Origin: a virus
Virus record (IMG/VR): IMGVR_UViG_3300000256_000007
Span: 1 to 23,088 of that record
Strand: one strand, 5' to 3'
DNA length: 23,088 nt
Positions 258 to 16,433 of this stretch are shown here, piece after piece. Positions within the stretch are counted from its first letter, which is position 1, and every line of letters begins with the position of its first letter. The translations under genes and the position numbers were made by a program. Under the pieces are notes generated by a model. That model did no database searches. It saw only the letters and a list, made by a program, of their open reading frames with translations, and had not been told where the DNA came from.

Positions 258-919
258 GTTTCTTTCCAGTTTTTTACATGTGATACTTGACAAGTTTTTC
301 TTTTCTTTAAACGACTAGCAATACTGTAGTCATTACCGCTAGGATCGCAACGATCTCCAAAGAAGTGTATAGGATTACCGCTAAAGTATTTAAGTACCTG
401 AGACTTGTCACTTCCCCTAGGATATATATCAATGCCTGTTTCACCGCCAACTTCTGCGGCTAGGTCATGAAATTTGCTTCTAATTAACACTGCAATACGC
501 TGTCTTTCGTTATTTTCTTCATCCCACTTGAAGTAATTGGTTCTTTGGTCACCAACTGAGTTTCTTCCCACTACACTGAAATTAAGCATACCTGGTCTGA
601 CTTCAATATGGTTACCATGTCTTTCTGGATATGGACTACTGGATAAAGTTTGCTCTAGTAACTCTATTAATTTGTTACTGGGTTTCCAGCTATTTTTTGC
701 TATATGATTTCCTCGTAGATAGACATCACTGCCACTACAGTTAAAACAATATTGTGCCTGCTTAAACACATCCTCTCCTACTTGCTCTATAGTTTTTGGA
801 TAATCACTGCCTGTAACTAAACTAAAATTTGGCAATGTAAGAAAGAACTTTTTAAAGTCTGGATCCATAACCTCCCTGCTAGGAGTTATGGTTCCATCAA
901 CATCGAAAAGATAGATCAT
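206..919 (-). CDS. Eukaryotic-type phosphomannomutase (HAD superfamily, class IIB)
   Basis: A 237-aa protein that should interconvert mannose-6-phosphate and mannose-1-phosphate, the precursor of GDP-mannose. Visible HAD motifs are DVDGT at residues 7-11 (nucleophile and acid/base aspartates), SLVTGSD near 33-39, and the acidic loop GDRCDPSGND near the C-terminus. The cap carries VRPGMLNFSVVGRN and GIDIYPRGSDKSQ, which match the signature substrate-binding segments of eukaryotic PMM, and the length is close to the usual ~245 aa. It overlaps folE by four bases (ATGA). In phage context it may feed sugar nucleotides to the glycosyltransferase or sugar dehydrogenase and epimerase nearby; that link is inference. 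Another HAD-IIB sugar phosphatase is a less likely alternative. Confidence 0.82.
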   Translation of the reverse strand: MIYLFDVDGTITPSREVMDPDFKKFFLTLPNFSLVTGSDYPKTIEQVGEDVFKQAQYCFNCSGSDVYLRGNHIAKNSWKPSNKLIELLEQTLSSSPYPERHGNHIEVRPGMLNFSVVGRNSVGDQRTNYFKWDEENNERQRIAVLIRSKFHDLAAEVGGETGIDIYPRGSDKSQVLKYFSGNPIHFFGDRCDPSGNDYSIASRLKKRKTCQVSHVKNWKETWKILKNHKYMNHQTAA

Positions 920-1584
920 TTTATTATAGCCATAAATTCTGCACGGGCTTGTGGGTCATTCTTAAAACATCCACCAAGTTTAGTAGTAATAGTGGACGAA
1001 CCAGTATCTTCTACTCCACGGCTTTTAACACAATAATGTTGTGCGTCAACTACTACTGCAATATTATCTGTTTGTAGAATATATTGCAATGCATAGTAAA
1101 CTTGTTCTGTTAAACGCTCCTGGATTTGAGGACGTTTTGCAAAGTATTCTACGACACGATTAAGTTTACTAAGTCCTAATACTTTTTCGCTAGGGATATA
1201 TGCTACTGTAGCCAAGCCGTCAATAACAACAAAGTGATGTTCACAGTTACTTTGAACGTTTATATTACGCTCAATCACCATTTCATCATACTTCATCTTG
1301 TTGTCTACGGCAGTGCATTTAGGAAATGCTTCGTAGTCTAAACCCCAAAAGATCTCGTTTACATACATCTTGGCTACACGTTTTGGTGTATCAATAAGAC
1401 TATCATCTCTAAGATCTAGTCCTAGTAATTTCATAATATGTGTAAAATGCTCTTGGATTTGCTCGATCTTATCTTTACGATCAAGACCTGAATCTATTAC
1501 AGGAGTTTCAACACCCATCTTGACAAGGTGTTCGTGGACTCGGAGACCCAAGTCAGCGTCAGTTTTTGTTTTATTGTATGCCAT
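916..1584 (-). CDS. folE: GTP cyclohydrolase I
   Basis: A 222-aa enzyme converting GTP to dihydroneopterin triphosphate, the first step of folate and of queuosine/7-deazaguanine synthesis. Zinc and catalytic residues are visible: C114-E-H116-H117 (SNCEHHFVV) and HYC185VKSRGVEDTGSSTITT, both diagnostic of the family. Residues 40-110 form the usual helical N-terminal part (DDSLIDTPKRVAKMYVNEIF). Start ATG 1584 follows GGAAGGAATTAAAT. The stop overlaps the phosphomannomutase ATG. With DpdA 2 kb upstream and a QueD-like protein at 8847-9329, the likely role is to raise precursor flux to preQ0-type bases for phage DNA; folate supply for nucleotide synthesis is the alternative. Confidence 0.95.
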   Translation of the reverse strand: MAYNKTKTDADLGLRVHEHLVKMGVETPVIDSGLDRKDKIEQIQEHFTHIMKLLGLDLRDDSLIDTPKRVAKMYVNEIFWGLDYEAFPKCTAVDNKMKYDEMVIERNINVQSNCEHHFVVIDGLATVAYIPSEKVLGLSKLNRVVEYFAKRPQIQERLTEQVYYALQYILQTDNIAVVVDAQHYCVKSRGVEDTGSSTITTKLGGCFKNDPQARAEFMAIIK

Positions 1585-1645: not shown

Positions 1646-1653
1646 TATTTATT
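1646..1653 (-). promoter_or_regulatory. Possible late promoter AATAAATA upstream of folE
   Basis: On the minus strand the octamer AATAAATA, one base off the T4 late consensus TATAAATA, overlaps the glycosyltransferase stop and lies 62 bases before folE. No convincing sigma-70 -35/-10 pair is visible in this spacer. AT-rich coincidence is quite possible. Confidence 0.3.
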
Positions 1654-2710
1654 AAGTGTGTTTTAATATGTTTTCCATCATAATATTACTGGTTAAATAC
1701 TCTCTCTTTAATCTTTCTTGTTGAGCAGTAAGTAAATCTTTATATGCTGAATAGCGTGTTAATCTGTCATCTATAAACCTAATTAGTTTATCTTTGTGCT
1801 TAACGTAACTTGGCATATCCTGCGTCCATTTACTTGGATATTTAAACTCGTCATGGTACATTTCTGTATAACTGCATCTGTCAGGAACAATAGGAATTGC
1901 TCCTGTAAGCACTGCTTCCATTACACTAATGCCTAAGTTTTCATGCAATGCACAGCTAAAAATAGCTTTACTAGTACCCATTTTAGCATAGTAATCAGCT
2001 TTATCCAAATTCATTTTTTGAGTAATAACCATGTCAAAGTTATCTGATAAGTCTTCTGCTATTAAAGGTTGTTTATCAGCATTATATCTGTGTGGCCACA
2101 TAACAGTATCTTGTTTGGGAGTATCCTGGTAAGCTACTAGATCTTTAACTATCAGCTCATGCGGTTGTCCACTCCTAATTGCCTTGTGATGATATTTGAC
2201 AGGAATGTCTAAATTCTTTAGGAACATATCCCTGTGGCTGTTAGTAGCATAATAGTTATAATCGCTGCTATGGAACCAACTGCGCTCTGCATCCCAGGGC
2301 CAGGGCTTTTGCATCTTATAACCCAATATATCACTGGGATCATAAGCACCGGCGTGAACAATGGAATGCAGTTCCCAATCTTGATCCATAAGATCATTCA
2401 TATATTTTACTTGGGTAATAACTGGGTTCCAAAAATCAGTGAATAGAAATTTATCATTAATTGTAGTTTCGCCAGCATCGTATAATTCAATAAAATTACA
2501 TAATTGTGAACTCTTCCAATAATTAGTGTCTGTAAAATTCAAAAAAGCCCCGGGGGTTAATTTAGCATTTCGTTGAATACCATCGATTTGCCTTACATTA
2601 TAATTATCTCCAGCTGCCTCCTGTAGTATCGTCGGCAGATTTTCATGCCATTGTTTTGTATATCTGCCATCAAGTGGCTCCAATGCGAATATCCAAATAT
2701 TAGGTACCAA
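1652..2710 (-). CDS. GT-B fold glycosyltransferase (GT4-like)
   Basis: A 352-aa putative sugar transferase. The C-terminal half holds the hallmark donor-binding segment HENLGISVMEAVLTGAIPIVPD (residues about 257-279), with the E-x7-E arrangement and the Pro/Gly turn of GT4-type enzymes. MWPHRYNADKQP near 204 marks the start of the C-terminal Rossmann domain. Start is TTG 2710: it has GGAG seven bases upstream, and no in-frame ATG lies nearby. A sigma-70-like promoter (2742-2771) sits directly upstream. Lying between dpdA and folE, it may glycosylate a modified DNA base, but host-surface or virion glycosylation cannot be excluded. The acceptor is unknown. Confidence 0.8.
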   Translation of the reverse strand: MVPNIWIFALEPLDGRYTKQWHENLPTILQEAAGDNYNVRQIDGIQRNAKLTPGAFLNFTDTNYWKSSQLCNFIELYDAGETTINDKFLFTDFWNPVITQVKYMNDLMDQDWELHSIVHAGAYDPSDILGYKMQKPWPWDAERSWFHSSDYNYYATNSHRDMFLKNLDIPVKYHHKAIRSGQPHELIVKDLVAYQDTPKQDTVMWPHRYNADKQPLIAEDLSDNFDMVITQKMNLDKADYYAKMGTSKAIFSCALHENLGISVMEAVLTGAIPIVPDRCSYTEMYHDEFKYPSKWTQDMPSYVKHKDKLIRFIDDRLTRYSAYKDLLTAQQERLKREYLTSNIMMENILKHT

Positions 2711-2741: not shown

Positions 2742-2771
2742 ATTATATAACACCGGGTGTTCTTATGTCAA
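2742..2771 (-). promoter_or_regulatory. Sigma-70-like promoter for the glycosyltransferase gene
   Basis: Minus strand TTGACA (2771-2766), an 18-base spacer, then TATAAT (2747-2742). Both hexamers are perfect consensus. Transcription would start near 2735, leaving a leader that contains GGAG before the TTG start. The -35 box overlaps the start codon of the opposing HNH gene. Confidence 0.75.
2749..2761 (+). other. Short hairpin in front of the HNH endonuclease start
   Basis: AACAC-CGG-GTGTT forms a 5-bp stem ending three bases before ATG 2765 on the plus strand. It would fold over the ribosome-binding region of the endonuclease mRNA. T4 homing-endonuclease genes are known to be restrained by hairpins over their ribosome sites; that this one acts likewise is inference. 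Confidence 0.35.
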
Positions 2772-3571
2772 TAAAAACCATTATTCAAAATTGTGCTAAA
2801 ACTAATGATGTTAAAAAAGTTATTCGGAAATATATGGAACCATATATTTCCATATATCCAACTGCTTGGCCACTATATAAGCAAGCATACCATCAGATTT
2901 ATTTAAAGCAATCTATTCATCCCGTGTTATGTCCTGTGTGTGGAAGTGAACTAAAATTTGCCGGTCTAAAAAAAGGTTATCCGAAAAATTGTTCCTATAA
3001 ATGTAGAGCAAATAATAATGATACTCAAACAAAATATAAAGAAACATGCCTTGAACGGTACGGTAAAGAATATGCTTCACAAACTTCTGATTTCCGCAAC
3101 CAAGTCGAACAAACATGTTTGCATAAATTTGGTGTTTCAAATCCTGCTAAATCACCTTCTGTACAAGAAAAATACCAGCAAACTGTTCTAGCAAAATATG
3201 GTGTTACCAATGCATCAAAAGCCCAATGTGTAAAAGATAAAATTCGCAATTCGCATATTAACACTGGAAATTGGAAATCTTATAATGAGCTCTCTAAACT
3301 TGACCAATATAGACGGGAAGTAGAAATTATAACTAAACGTTCATATCACGATCATTATTATGACATTAATCCAAATGATTTAGAACGAAGTCGTTATGTT
3401 TATCATCTAGATCATATATATTCAGTTCAGGAAGGATTTAATAATAATGTACCTCCGGAAGTAATTGGGCATTGGACTAACTTAAGAATGATGTGGCATC
3501 TAGATAATTCTAGAAAAAATACACGTTGTGATAAAACTATCGATCAACTTTTCGAAGACTTCAAAAAATAA
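2765..3571 (+). CDS. Free-standing HNH homing endonuclease
   Basis: A 268-aa protein and the only plus-strand gene. Layout: a zinc finger CPVC (56-59) and CSYKC (76-80); three degenerate repeats of the form KYxxTxxxKYGVxNxxxS (about 90-160), typical DNA-recognition repeats of phage homing endonucleases; and a C-terminal HNH core with HLDH (214-217), TNL (N239) and HLDNSRKN. It is divergent from the glycosyltransferase and convergent with dpdA, with no intron visible, so it behaves as an inserted mobile gene. Its coding looks more AT-rich than its neighbours. It probably cuts genomes that lack it and spreads by recombination. There is no clear Shine-Dalgarno, suggesting restrained expression. 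Confidence 0.85.
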   Translation: MSIKTIIQNCAKTNDVKKVIRKYMEPYISIYPTAWPLYKQAYHQIYLKQSIHPVLCPVCGSELKFAGLKKGYPKNCSYKCRANNNDTQTKYKETCLERYGKEYASQTSDFRNQVEQTCLHKFGVSNPAKSPSVQEKYQQTVLAKYGVTNASKAQCVKDKIRNSHINTGNWKSYNELSKLDQYRREVEIITKRSYHDHYYDINPNDLERSRYVYHLDHIYSVQEGFNNNVPPEVIGHWTNLRMMWHLDNSRKNTRCDKTIDQLFEDFKK

Positions 3572-3602: not shown

Positions 3603-5069
3603 TCATCTTGCATCGTCCTCTTCCTGACTACTTTCAATGTCAGTGTTAGTTGTTGCATCATCTTCAAAGTTAAACAAACTATCAAACGTAGTTGAGTTTT
3701 CCAGCTTCTTCATACGGCTTAGTTTAGCAATTAGTTTTTCATGTTTAGCTAGTTCCGCATCAATAGCATCCATGCTCTGGCCATAATCTTTAGCAAACAA
3801 TTCATCACAGATCTGATTAAACTCCAAGTACTGGCTGGGAACCCAGTGATGCATTCCGCTTGGCCTAGACATAAGCCTGTTTGCCATTTGTACGGCATCA
3901 ATATGCTTGTAAATATTATGTCCCATCATTAAGCAATATGCAAAACTATCCCAGCTAGTTCTACCTTCTTTGCCAATCTTGTTAAGCTCGCCGGGATCAT
4001 ACCAGTTAATATCTTTCCAAGTGCAACGCTCACCAATTGGACTATCATCCCAGGGCCAGGGAGCATCTTTGCCGTATGGTTCTTTTTCATCAACCATTTT
4101 AACCATGTTGTATCCCATGCGCTTTGTATCAAATACATTGTGCGTGTATACTTGACCGTTAGCTGTAGCAATAAATGGACTAGCACAATCCATGCTAATT
4201 GTAAGATCAGGATTAACGTGTTTTCTAATAGCACGTTGCATTGCTGAGTACATAACACCTTGATCTAATCTGCCTGTACCTAGGAAGTGTATCCACTCTG
4301 ACTTTTGTAGCAAGTCTAATTCTTTAAGAAATAGTACACGCCTAAGACTATGGTTTAAGTTTGTTTTTTGTACGCCACCAAATGCCCAGCCATGTGTTTC
4401 ATTTACCACAGGAACACAAACCTTTATAAACCAATCATCTGCTTGTTCATATGTACTGCCCTGGCATACATTTAGGAACTTTGTTTTATTCTGCCTGTGT
4501 TTAAAGAAGTAATTGTTATTAGCAATAGTTGCATCTCTAAACTCATTGTAGTTGTTTAGACCGCACTTAGGCTTGCCAGTTTCTTCGTTAATAAAGTTAA
4601 GTCCGTTTGTAGGAATATCCAGTACCATGCTGTAGTCTGCTGTATTCTCCAGCCAGTTTAATACCTTACCACGTTGCTTGTCAGTAGCTGAACACTGACC
4701 TTCAGGCTCTAGCCAGTTACCCTGCCATACACCTTTACTGATCTGGAAGCCGCCGCTGTCTCCAATTAGTGTAGTCCATTCCTTGTCGCGACCATGAATC
4801 ATTCCTTCTTTAGCTGGCGCCTTTTGCATATCTAATTCGGCATGCCCTGCGCTGTAAAGCACATGGTCATATGTAAAGTACCCTTGGTTAGGGTTAAGAA
4901 AGTTTAATCCTTCAATACCATTTTCAAATTTCTTAGGAATACGGTCTGCTTCGACATAGTTGCCAGTGGCCTGTTGCTTGCTAACGTAACTACTGTAAAA
5001 CCCGCTTAGTGCTGGGGTAAAGATAGCGTAGTCATGATTCTTTTTGCTTAGATCAATCTTATTTGCCAT
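3603..5069 (-). CDS. dpdA: DpdA-type DNA 7-deazaguanine transglycosylase
   Basis: A 488-aa member of the tRNA-guanine transglycosylase superfamily, of the branch that swaps guanine for preQ0-type bases in DNA. Motifs in TGT order: IGDSGGFQ (D104), VLDIP (D151), LNVCQGST (about 199-206), WAFGGV (228-233), HFLGTGR (261-267) and SMDCASP, where D294 aligns with the TGT nucleophile. Start ATG 5069 follows GAGG at good spacing, and a near-consensus promoter precedes it (5100-5128). The last 30 residues are a basic/coiled stretch, then TFDSLFNFE (461-469), then an acidic tail. That peptide almost repeats the DNA polymerase C-terminus, suggesting sliding-clamp binding. With FolE and a QueD-like protein it forms a DNA-modification pathway, probably protecting against host restriction. 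Confidence 0.87.
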   Translation of the reverse strand: MANKIDLSKKNHDYAIFTPALSGFYSSYVSKQQATGNYVEADRIPKKFENGIEGLNFLNPNQGYFTYDHVLYSAGHAELDMQKAPAKEGMIHGRDKEWTTLIGDSGGFQISKGVWQGNWLEPEGQCSATDKQRGKVLNWLENTADYSMVLDIPTNGLNFINEETGKPKCGLNNYNEFRDATIANNNYFFKHRQNKTKFLNVCQGSTYEQADDWFIKVCVPVVNETHGWAFGGVQKTNLNHSLRRVLFLKELDLLQKSEWIHFLGTGRLDQGVMYSAMQRAIRKHVNPDLTISMDCASPFIATANGQVYTHNVFDTKRMGYNMVKMVDEKEPYGKDAPWPWDDSPIGERCTWKDINWYDPGELNKIGKEGRTSWDSFAYCLMMGHNIYKHIDAVQMANRLMSRPSGMHHWVPSQYLEFNQICDELFAKDYGQSMDAIDAELAKHEKLIAKLSRMKKLENSTTFDSLFNFEDDATTNTDIESSQEEDDAR

Positions 5070-11883: not shown

Positions 11884-12615
11884 TTACTTGGTTTGTGCTG
11901 GTAACAAATAATCATAAACTGCTAATCCGCTGTCTACCGTAATTTGCGTTACGCCGTCATCACTGATCTTGTAAGTGCTATCACCACTAAGGCTCAAAAT
12001 CTTACTTACTTGATCCACTGGCCATGCCCACGCCTTGGATAATGATCCACCAACATCATGCTGAAATACAAACTCACCAGCGTGTGTACTTGCATCACCA
12101 AACGCAAACTTAAGATCTTTGCCTTCCGACTTAGCAATAAAAACACCTTGTTCGCTGTTAGCTGATACCATCATCTTTAAACGTGCGATACTGGCCACAG
12201 TAGGTACAAAGTCAACACCCCATTTAACTGAACGCATTTGTACAGTTTTAAGTTGATCATTAACAATGTCACTACTCATGAAACGGTAATCGTTTTGGAA
12301 GTCTCCAGATTTGTTTTCGAAGTGTAGTCCAACTGGCACAGTTTCGCCATTGCGATCCTGTGAATTGATGCTGACTACAGCATCTTCTGCGTACTCCGGG
12401 ATACGCAAAATCACACCTAGTTTATCCAAGTTAGGCATACCAAACGTGCCCATAAACTCAGCTACAGGGTTGTGGAACTTTCCTTTGAGAATAACACTTC
12501 TGTCTTCTGCAAGTCCTTCAATACTAGTAGTAGTATCATCTCCTGTAACTTTAACTAAGTCAATAAACCCTAGATTGTGCGTATGTTGCACAATATCAAG
12601 TAGAAAATCTTTCAT
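11884..12615 (-). CDS. 45: DNA polymerase sliding clamp (T4 gp45 type)
   Basis: A 243-aa protein with the T4 gp45 layout: MKDFLLDIVQHTHNLGFID at the start, GKFHNPVAEFMGTFGMPNLDKLGVIL, a middle linker MRSVKWGVDFVPTVASIARL and a C-terminal repeat ending TVDSGLAVYDYLLP. Length is near T4 gp45 (228 aa). It forms a trimeric ring holding polymerase on DNA and, in T4, also activates late transcription. Start ATG 12615 follows AAGGAC, and a sigma-70-like promoter lies upstream (12649-12677). It is separated from the polymerase gene by a methyltransferase-like gene. It is the expected partner of the C-terminal peptides of the polymerase and, possibly, DpdA. Confidence 0.9.
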   Translation of the reverse strand: MKDFLLDIVQHTHNLGFIDLVKVTGDDTTTSIEGLAEDRSVILKGKFHNPVAEFMGTFGMPNLDKLGVILRIPEYAEDAVVSINSQDRNGETVPVGLHFENKSGDFQNDYRFMSSDIVNDQLKTVQMRSVKWGVDFVPTVASIARLKMMVSANSEQGVFIAKSEGKDLKFAFGDASTHAGEFVFQHDVGGSLSKAWAWPVDQVSKILSLSGDSTYKISDDGVTQITVDSGLAVYDYLLPAQTK

Positions 12616-13778: not shown

Positions 13779-16433
13779 TTACTCAAATGAGAATAACGTA
13801 TCAAAAGTGTTGTTGGTTTGTGTTTTTTCCTTGATGTTCCAATTTAGATCGCCTAGTAAGTTATCAATCTTTTGATCTACAATAGCTTCTAACATAGCTT
13901 CGTTGTTAAATGGCAAATCCTTAAACCACTGTGGCAGTGTTGTTTCGTCCGTAGGATATCCTACACTTGTATAACCCAGTGGATTATCTTTAAGTTTACA
14001 CACAATGGTTTTCATTCCATCCACAATCTGTTGACTGTAGTTGTCCCCATTAAGTTTGCGTAGGTAATTCCAGTTCATAGCCGCTCTAACGTGTCCTGGC
14101 ATATTAGTCTTGCCTTCACTGTTATGTTTAGCTGTAAATTTAGTTAAGTTATTAACACGTTTAGGAGTGCCTTTTTCCCAGCCCGGACGATCCGTAAACT
14201 CATACTTAAACTCTTTAATGCGTTCAATAATAGTCTCTGGATCTTTGTCTGTTAGTACGTCAAGTAATAGTTCACCCAGGAAGTCCTGCATAAATGCTGG
14301 CGTATCACTACGCTTAAGATCTAGTCCCATTGCTTTAACTTTGCCAGGTTTGCCTTCCGTGTCACTACGATAACCTTCAGTATCAATAACAAGTGCCGCA
14401 TAACGTTTCTTGGTAATAAACAGTCCTTTAGTTGCTACAATCTCTCTAGCACCTGCCATAATACTACCCAAGTTACGTGGACAATGAAATGCTTTCTCCA
14501 TGTATCCAGCAAACGTTTCGTTTACTGCTTCTCCAAGTTGATCATACAAAGAAATACATTCTTCTTTGCCCCACTTCATCTGACCTTTTTCAACTTGTTC
14601 CTTTATCACAGGCCATGCACTAAAGTAAACTGAGTCAGTGTCTCCATAGATAACACATTCCCCCACGTGATCATATTCATCAGTAAGCAGTTTGTTTACT
14701 TGTGCGCTCATGTGTTTTGCAATACAGCGTCCTGTAAGTGTAGTACTCTGTCCAATACGATGATCATGGAATCTACAATATGGATTAAGGATTGCACCAT
14801 ACAAACTGTTCAAGTTAATCTTTTTAACTAACTGTCTCTTATCCCAAAACTCACGCTCACTGCCTTCTGCTTTTCGCATCTTTGCTTGAATCTCTTGACG
14901 TTCTGCATACCAACGCTCCAACAGCCCAGGTATAATCCCCTGTTTTTCATGTGTTAGTATTGTTCCGTTTGCACTTAATATCCAAGGATTATTGCTGTCA
15001 AAAACTAGCCTCCAGACATCCGCGGCGCTCAGTGTATCATTATCGCCATCTTCCCAGTCGATAGTAATTTCAGTGCCTGCTTCCATGTTCATAACTGCTT
15101 GATATTCTTTACTACCAAACTCGCCTTCCCAGGCATCTGCCCAACTTTTCTTATCTGATAGTTTTTCCTTGATAGCATGATCAGTAATTACTGGCCTAAG
15201 CTGACCAATTATTGTTTCTGGCGCCATGTTAAGAGCTCTAATTACACTGGGATACAGACTGTTTAAGTCAATACTACCAATCCAATCATGCAACCCTTTT
15301 TTAGGATATGCTACATATGCACCAGCAGCTTTATTGTGTTCGTCATCGCTCTTCTGTTTGTTAGGAACAACTAGTCCTTGCTCATGAGCGTGGTTAATAA
15401 TAGCCTGTTCTGTAAGTGCAACCGCACCCATTGTTGTTGGCAATAGCACTGTGTTTTCATGGGCTAGCACATTAGCTAGGTCAATAAACTTGAGCTTATC
15501 GTCTAACTTTTTAAGTAGCAATGTATCTTGTCTGTTGTAGTCAATAAATGTATAAAAGTCTTGGTTGTATAATTGATCCAAGGTCCCTTCATACGCAACT
15601 TTGCGCTCGCCAAGTTCGTATTCACCAATGGCATCCAAACTATAACTATGCATTTCATGATACGTATACTTGCGGTATAATTGCATATAGTCTAAGTGTT
15701 GTCTGCCAATTAAATCATATGTAGTTTGTTCCGATCCAAAACGTTCAAACGTGCGCTTCTTAGGATGCTGCCCCCATAAACAAAACTTGCGTGTATCGTC
15801 TTTGCTTAGTACTCTGGTAATACGGTTAACAGTATAAGGAATATCATATCCTTCGCTGTTCCATCCACTTAGGATATCTGCATCATCAATTAACTCTAGG
15901 AATGTCTTTAGTAGCTCTGCTTCAGTCTTAAATAAAAATGTATTGTCAAAGTCTGCTATGCTTTCCTTAGCAGACTCCATGCTCATGCTTTTGGGAGGTA
16001 TTGCTAATGTTACAAGTTGGCCAGTCCAGTCCATTTGAACTGTGATAGCAGTAATCATATTAAAGGGATCATCAGGACTACTGTATCCACGCTGTGGATC
16101 AAAATCTACCTCAATATCAAAAAACGCTGTTTGCAACTTAGGAGAATCTACACCCAGATAATTCTCTTCTAAACAACGAAATACTGGATTAATATCACTT
16201 TCCCAGATTCCACTTCCGCCATGGATCCTTACTTCTTTGTGGAACTCTTTGCCGTTGCGTGTGCTAAATCTGCTTACGGGATTTCCGTAGATTGTTTTGT
16301 GTTTGCCACGATTATCATTGTAATAAAACGTATAGTTTGCTGGAAACTCTCTGTATTCTCGCTTTCCATCTATACGTTCTACTGCATGAATACGATCATG
16401 ATCTCTGTCAAAGTATGCGTCTACGTAACTCAT
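13779..16433 (-). CDS. 43: Family-B DNA polymerase (T4 gp43 type)
   Basis: An 884-aa replicative polymerase, close to T4 gp43 (898 aa). 3'-5' exonuclease motifs: FFDIEVD (D106, E108), SGWNSEGYDIPY near 197 and YNRQDTLLL near 299. Polymerase motifs: IDLNSLYPSVIRA near 388 (motif A), KKINLNSLYGAI near 537 (motif B) and IYGDTDSVYFS near 594 (motif C). The C-terminus NNTFDTLFSFE is a hydrophobic-acidic tail like those that dock T4-type polymerases to gp45. Start ATG 16433 overlaps the preceding gene's stop (ATGA). A perfect sigma-70 promoter at 16944-16972 probably drives it together with dsbA. Confidence 0.97.
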   Translation of the reverse strand: MSYVDAYFDRDHDRIHAVERIDGKREYREFPANYTFYYNDNRGKHKTIYGNPVSRFSTRNGKEFHKEVRIHGGSGIWESDINPVFRCLEENYLGVDSPKLQTAFFDIEVDFDPQRGYSSPDDPFNMITAITVQMDWTGQLVTLAIPPKSMSMESAKESIADFDNTFLFKTEAELLKTFLELIDDADILSGWNSEGYDIPYTVNRITRVLSKDDTRKFCLWGQHPKKRTFERFGSEQTTYDLIGRQHLDYMQLYRKYTYHEMHSYSLDAIGEYELGERKVAYEGTLDQLYNQDFYTFIDYNRQDTLLLKKLDDKLKFIDLANVLAHENTVLLPTTMGAVALTEQAIINHAHEQGLVVPNKQKSDDEHNKAAGAYVAYPKKGLHDWIGSIDLNSLYPSVIRALNMAPETIIGQLRPVITDHAIKEKLSDKKSWADAWEGEFGSKEYQAVMNMEAGTEITIDWEDGDNDTLSAADVWRLVFDSNNPWILSANGTILTHEKQGIIPGLLERWYAERQEIQAKMRKAEGSEREFWDKRQLVKKINLNSLYGAILNPYCRFHDHRIGQSTTLTGRCIAKHMSAQVNKLLTDEYDHVGECVIYGDTDSVYFSAWPVIKEQVEKGQMKWGKEECISLYDQLGEAVNETFAGYMEKAFHCPRNLGSIMAGAREIVATKGLFITKKRYAALVIDTEGYRSDTEGKPGKVKAMGLDLKRSDTPAFMQDFLGELLLDVLTDKDPETIIERIKEFKYEFTDRPGWEKGTPKRVNNLTKFTAKHNSEGKTNMPGHVRAAMNWNYLRKLNGDNYSQQIVDGMKTIVCKLKDNPLGYTSVGYPTDETTLPQWFKDLPFNNEAMLEAIVDQKIDNLLGDLNWNIKEKTQTNNTFDTLFSFE

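Follow-up and report, generated by a model that had tools for sequence, protein, structure and literature searches.

In phage T4, the clamp-binding motifs of gp43, gp55 and gp33 are interchangeable, and that of gp55 also works when placed internally in a fusion (PMC2988020). As read here, the three tails are SLDFLFG (gp43), SLDFLYEAND (gp55) and TLDFLL (gp33). A phage DNA-modifying enzyme associated with the replication clamp is also on record, namely the T4 alpha-glucosyltransferase, whose association with gp45 goes back to Sommer 2004, as cited and confirmed in PMC13216743, according to which the glucosylation share is mostly set by promoter strength and enzyme level, not by clamp binding. 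Among cellular enzymes, DNMT1 is tethered to PCNA by a PIP box (PMC11371216). As for 7-deazaguanine modification, dPreQ0 is present in the DNA of Vibrio phage nt-1 (PMC6884629), and a system that makes and incorporates deazaguanine has been ascribed to phage PA5oct in independent work (PMC7824862). The open-access texts searched yielded no report of a clamp-binding DpdA, the terms DpdA and sliding clamp occurring together, without being connected, in two papers. The preliminary description of the present locus likewise knew of no clamp-tethered DpdA. A clamp-bound modifying enzyme as such was already known from T4 alpha-glucosyltransferase and DNMT1.

The DNA analysed here (the window) covers positions 1 to 23,088 of an IMG/VR virus record that is 42,797 bases long, and contains a gene of the DpdA type:

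3603..5069, minus strand: DpdA-like TGT-family DNA base transglycosylase, 488 residues (TIGR00449, active-site signatures, weak match to nt-1 DpdA2)
3663..3689, minus strand: predicted clamp-binding motif TFDSLFNFE, DpdA residues 461-469, core FDSLF (conservation peak, enrichment, co-variation)
3606..3662, minus strand: acidic tail C-terminal to the DpdA motif, DDATTNTDIESSQEEDDAR (sequence; low model confidence)

The TIGR00449 model (tRNA-guanine transglycosylase) matches DpdA residues 91-394 with E=2.2e-6, which is under the curated cut-off. The DSGG.Q signature (D104, S105, G106, G107 and Q109, in DSGGFQ) is invariant in 25 relatives, as is the second Asp, D294, within SxDCASP; D104-Q109 and D294 are presumably the TGT catalytic residues. 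A weak colinear match to nt-1 DpdA2 was obtained with hhalign (E=0.006, 172 columns) and the PA5oct DpdA is 39% identical to the one of this record; hhalign found no sequence match between the phage 9g DpdA and the DpdA family of this record, and searches of PDB sequences with the DpdA sequence and profile returned nothing useful. The protein resembles the phage DpdA and DpdA2 enzymes already described in its TGT-like signature, DSGG motif and linked FolE, but differs from them in that no clamp motif has been described there (PMC6884629).

The peptide of interest is shared with the DNA polymerase of the same window:

13779..16433, minus strand: family-B DNA polymerase (gp43-like), 884 residues (Pfam PF00136/PF03104, phrog_262)
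13782..13808, minus strand: polymerase C-terminal clamp-binding peptide TFDTLFSFE (extreme C-terminus; place and type as in the T4 gp43 tail ..KASLDFLFG)

The polymerase is recognized by Pfam DNA_pol_B (E=4.8e-38) and phrog_262 (E=3e-198). Both peptides read as first reported, the last nine residues of the polymerase being identical to DpdA residues 461-469 at seven of nine positions. In DpdA the peptide was said to lie between a helical linker and a disordered acidic tail, a picture with which the structure model is loosely consistent: residues 433-452 form a helix and residues 467-488 have pLDDT values <50, but the model is poor overall (mean pLDDT 38, narrow alignment A1). In this DpdA, 19 residues follow the motif, whereas in other clades (L014, L019, L236 and L243 among the loci collected, which are designated by L numbers) it is extreme C-terminal; the place of the motif thus varies by clade while the core is retained. 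As the internal gp55 motif is functional in T4 fusions, an internal place in DpdA fits, and T4 gp55 itself has residues after its motif. The likeness to the T4 gp43/gp55/gp33 motif extends to the presence of a short hydrophobic/acidic peptide ([ST][LF]DxL[FYL]), a flexible linker and the use of the peptide by several proteins of one phage; what differs is the carrier, here a base transglycosylase, the core, F-x-x-L-F instead of L-D-F-L-[FYL], and the 19-residue acidic tail that follows it. T4 alpha-glucosyltransferase, although likewise a phage DNA-modifying enzyme associated with the replication clamp, is an unrelated enzyme that adds glucose to hydroxymethylcytosine, and its tail, ..KEQFDIITK, has no FxxLF core. 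DNMT1 is also a base-modifying enzyme held on a PCNA-fold clamp at the replication fork by a short linear motif, but it carries out cellular maintenance methylation, its motif is N-terminal and the enzyme is another one.

The putative docking partner is encoded between dpdA and the polymerase gene:

11884..12615, minus strand: PCNA-type sliding clamp (gp45-like), 243 residues (AF2 model, Foldseek, phrog_12062)

The AF2 model of this product has a pLDDT of 92.6 and each of the best 50 Foldseek matches listed for it is a PCNA structure (prob 1.00, TM about 0.7), so that, by its predicted structure, the 243-residue protein is a PCNA-type sliding clamp with the two-domain PCNA fold. The ORF belongs to phrog_12062, listed as of 'unknown function' and including PA5oct EST35_0314 and NVP2275O_465; on the same modelling, phrog_12062 is a PCNA-type clamp family, and a Vibrio phage member also matches phrog_223, 'DNA polymerase processivity factor'. 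PA5oct EST35_0314 carries the annotation 'structural protein'. Sequence and profile searches of PDB sequences with the clamp found no clamp, and weak matches of its profile to ribosomal L24 in that search were discarded as chance. Since no sequence similarity to T4 gp45 is detectable (hhalign prob 3%), the protein is named PCNA-type and only functionally gp45-like. The interpretation of the DpdA peptide as a clamp-docking site, put forward in the preliminary description with gp45 as the partner, is accordingly refined on this point, while co-variation and conservation (see below) and the existence of a partner predicted to have the PCNA fold speak in its favour.

The genes for polymerase, clamp and DpdA are closely linked. 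Clamp and dpdA lie on one strand in 144 of 150 loci, the clamp gene being upstream in 129 of these 144 and within 60 bases in 43. The order polymerase, clamp, dpdA, folE is also found in phage 9g (L274:36-3960), an unrelated E. coli phage. In PA5oct the polymerase is encoded by two CDS around a homing-endonuclease-like gene (L181:20596-25822, EST35_0311-0313). Two further genes of the window may bear on the modification itself:

916..1584, minus strand: FolE, the GTP cyclohydrolase I with which preQ0 synthesis starts (PF01227, E=4.2e-62)
1652..2710, minus strand: glycosyltransferase-like protein, dpdA-associated (weak PF00534)

The FolE family is found in 60 of the 150 dpdA loci, and the glycosyltransferase-like family in 98, lying at most 2 kb downstream of dpdA in 55 of the 125 loci with room for it; in PA5oct its gene is directly behind dpdA, with a 2-base gap. 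This glycosyltransferase-like protein, of which further members are found at L148:3117-4175, L002:11464-12528 and L189:10800-11888, may glycosylate the 7-deazaguanine base. Other 7-deazaguanine synthesis genes occur near dpdA elsewhere, i.e. QueE in PA5oct, QueF in Vibrio phage 2.275.O, and FolE with a QueE-like protein in Phosso; no QueC, QueD or QueE was recognized in the present record, which is partial. In the window, dpdA is parted from the glycosyltransferase gene by a DUF7487/HNH-like ORF (2765-3571, plus strand) that looks like a homing endonuclease insertion, the two genes adjoining in some relatives. The C-terminus of this ORF, TIDQLFEDF, was considered as a further clamp motif and dropped, no examined relative supporting it. 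Elsewhere in the same virus record (L167:11123-12675, bases about 34,200-35,800), an ammonium transporter (PF00909, E=5e-101) stands beside a P-II regulator (PF00543, E=5e-27), two genes of host character that are seldom expected together in a phage.

With a DpdA motif of the kind found in T4 gp43, gp55 and gp33 on the one side and a predicted clamp on the other, it is quite probable that DpdA is docked on the clamp and acts on freshly synthesized DNA in coordination with replication. Docking could in principle serve other ends, such as storage, recycling or the assembly of a complex (e.g. with the glycosyltransferase or a late transcription complex). The T4 clamp is indeed also used in late transcription via gp55/gp33 (PMC2988020), and T4 alpha-glucosyltransferase binds gp45, yet its glucosylation share mostly follows promoter strength and enzyme level (PMC13216743). 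We consider these roles unlikely in view of the tight linkage of dpdA to the polymerase and clamp genes, and of the same tail being present on a DNA methylase, another DNA-modifying enzyme.

Whether the motif is a lasting property of DpdA can be judged from its relatives. It is not lost in close DpdA homologues with the same gp43 tail, as F[DE]SLFSF is kept in 10 of the 10 close relatives whose C-terminus is intact. A profile scan led to 80 loci with 39-46% identity, the FxxLF core being found in most of their DpdA tails, and when lineages are defined by polymerases <85% identical to others (53 lineages, the loci including metagenomic contigs), the DpdA tail contains a core F..[LIMF]F in 43/53 and [FVIY]..[LIMF]F in 47/53. 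Single-query scans with the PA5oct or Vibrio 2.275.O DpdA returned no viral contigs. The F, L and F of the DpdA core carry 3.46, 3.00 and 4.01 bits, respectively, against about 0.5-2.0 bits for the flanks; in the 25-member DpdA alignment A4, F466 is the sole nearly invariant position after F425, and outside the core the tail is hardly alignable, being a poorly conserved linker beyond the catalytic domain. The core recurs in PA5oct, which belongs to a different phage family (polymerase HFDSLFGW, DpdA SFNSLFDV). A minority of DpdAs have a degenerate or absent motif while the polymerase keeps FxxLF (L213, L221, L241, L260 and L105); the DpdAs of L097, L099, L102 and L104 end in NPDLFGE or DPSIFEE, and that of Phosso in VEGLF. 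The motif is absent from DpdA2 of the T4-like phage nt-1, and is therefore to be regarded as a property of one DpdA family. The end of the phage 9g DpdA, LQDLFDE, was not counted as an instance because the 9g polymerase has no matching tail.

Specificity was assessed by counting F[DNEHQSTGA]x[LIM]F within the last 60 residues of the 3,418 distinct ORFs of all loci, which fall into 159 families. By non-redundant groups, this strict motif is present in 24/32 polymerases, 36/51 DpdAs and 2/3 DNA methylases, against 10/1489 (0.7%) in all remaining ORF families, enrichment being limited to the polymerase, DpdA and the rare DNA methylase among the 159 families. The methylase (PF01555, E=2.2e-5) occurs in two large marine phages (L158:14647-15909, minus strand, and L170:1-1260) with the polymerase-like tail QF[DE]RLFE. 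In Vibrio phage 2.275.O, the amidoligase-like NVP2275O_469 (L182:5735-6847), which adjoins DpdA, starts with MFNELFDF, which may be a further copy of the motif, placed at the N-terminus.

Co-variation with the polymerase tail of the same phage, suggested as a check in the preliminary description, was examined in 138 loci holding both polymerase and dpdA (104 distinct tail pairs), and the DpdA motif was found to track its own polymerase. A change from FxxLF to FxxFF in the polymerase, or loss of the first F, is usually matched by the DpdA of the same phage. Thus, in L112 the polymerase has FQSFF and DpdA FNAFF, the 86%-identical neighbour L106 having FQSLF and FNNLF; FF is present in both partners in L236 (FANFF/YNNFF), L243 (FSSFF/FEDFF) and L232; I or V comes first in both in L200, L216 and L239 ([IV]DDLF / V[HN]D[IL]F); and in Vibrio phage 2.275.O a polymerase ending in NNTDLFDW is paired with a DpdA NNNDLFGW. 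When mapped on a tree of polymerases stripped of their tails, the joint changes need three independent events per position. Fisher tests, in which some degenerate DpdA cores were set by hand (e.g. L232 ASMFF, Vibrio NNDLF and L213), gave p=2.8e-5 with 91 clusters and 9e-4 with 20 clusters for L/F at core position 4, and p=1.7e-5 and 0.009, respectively, for the presence or absence of the first F. A permutation test with BLOSUM62 scores that set the own polymerase tail against those of others, and which is independent of the hand-set cores, was weaker than the Fisher tests yet significant (p=0.0017, 0.0025, 0.014 and 0.027 at 90, 80, 70 and 65% thinning). The tracking is not strict, DpdA ranking first within its locus for similarity to the polymerase tail in only 28/40 loci, with one-partner shifts in three lineages (L218, polymerase only; L196 and L229, DpdA only). 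As the DpdA and polymerase peptides have changed together in distant phages, DpdA is probably clamp-riding.

The same data weigh on the suggestion that FxxLF is an internal structural or dimerization element of DpdA, which resembles the polymerase tail because both converged on a hydrophobic pattern that is common. TGT enzymes do act as dimers (PMC6884629) and FxxLF is short; such an element, however, would hardly be expected in a divergent tail, internal or extreme C-terminal according to the clade, co-varying with the polymerase tail and standing out from the low background of other families, which makes this explanation very improbable. That the match is due to chance, or to the polymerase tail having recently been copied, as the seven identical residues in a single genome might suggest, is refuted by the lineage survey and can be dismissed, chance because the motif recurs across DpdA relatives and copying because, in line with the preliminary description, the underlying DNA differs (just 18/27 bases in common) and the flanks differ between clades.

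The predicted docking of DpdA on the clamp is strongly supported. The FDSLF core in the flexible C-terminal tail of DpdA would dock on the phage's own PCNA-type clamp, presumably by direct physical binding and in a pocket shared with the polymerase tail. The tethered enzyme would then scan the duplex that replication has just produced and replace guanine by a 7-deazaguanine base, putatively preQ0 or a derivative, in an exchange coordinated with replication and probably timed to take place behind the fork.

Among the practical consequences, phrog_12062 is now recognized as a clamp family, the motif can be used to find other clamp-bound phage enzymes, and F462, L465 and F466 are named as the residues without which modification should no longer be coupled to replication. 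It is also conceivable, although we hold this more tentatively and would not yet favour it, that many T4-like and jumbo phages, forming a large group, use the clamp more generally as a platform for modifying their genomes. DpdA, one or more DNA methylases and perhaps the amidoligase would dock there by peptides that copy the polymerase tail, each in co-evolution with the clamp of its own phage. If so, the DNA would be hypermodified on leaving the fork, so that restriction enzymes would never meet it unmodified, and a modifying enzyme would fit only its own clamp and could not be transferred freely. For one large family, clamp docking would offer a concrete and testable answer to how post-replicative base exchange outpaces host restriction.
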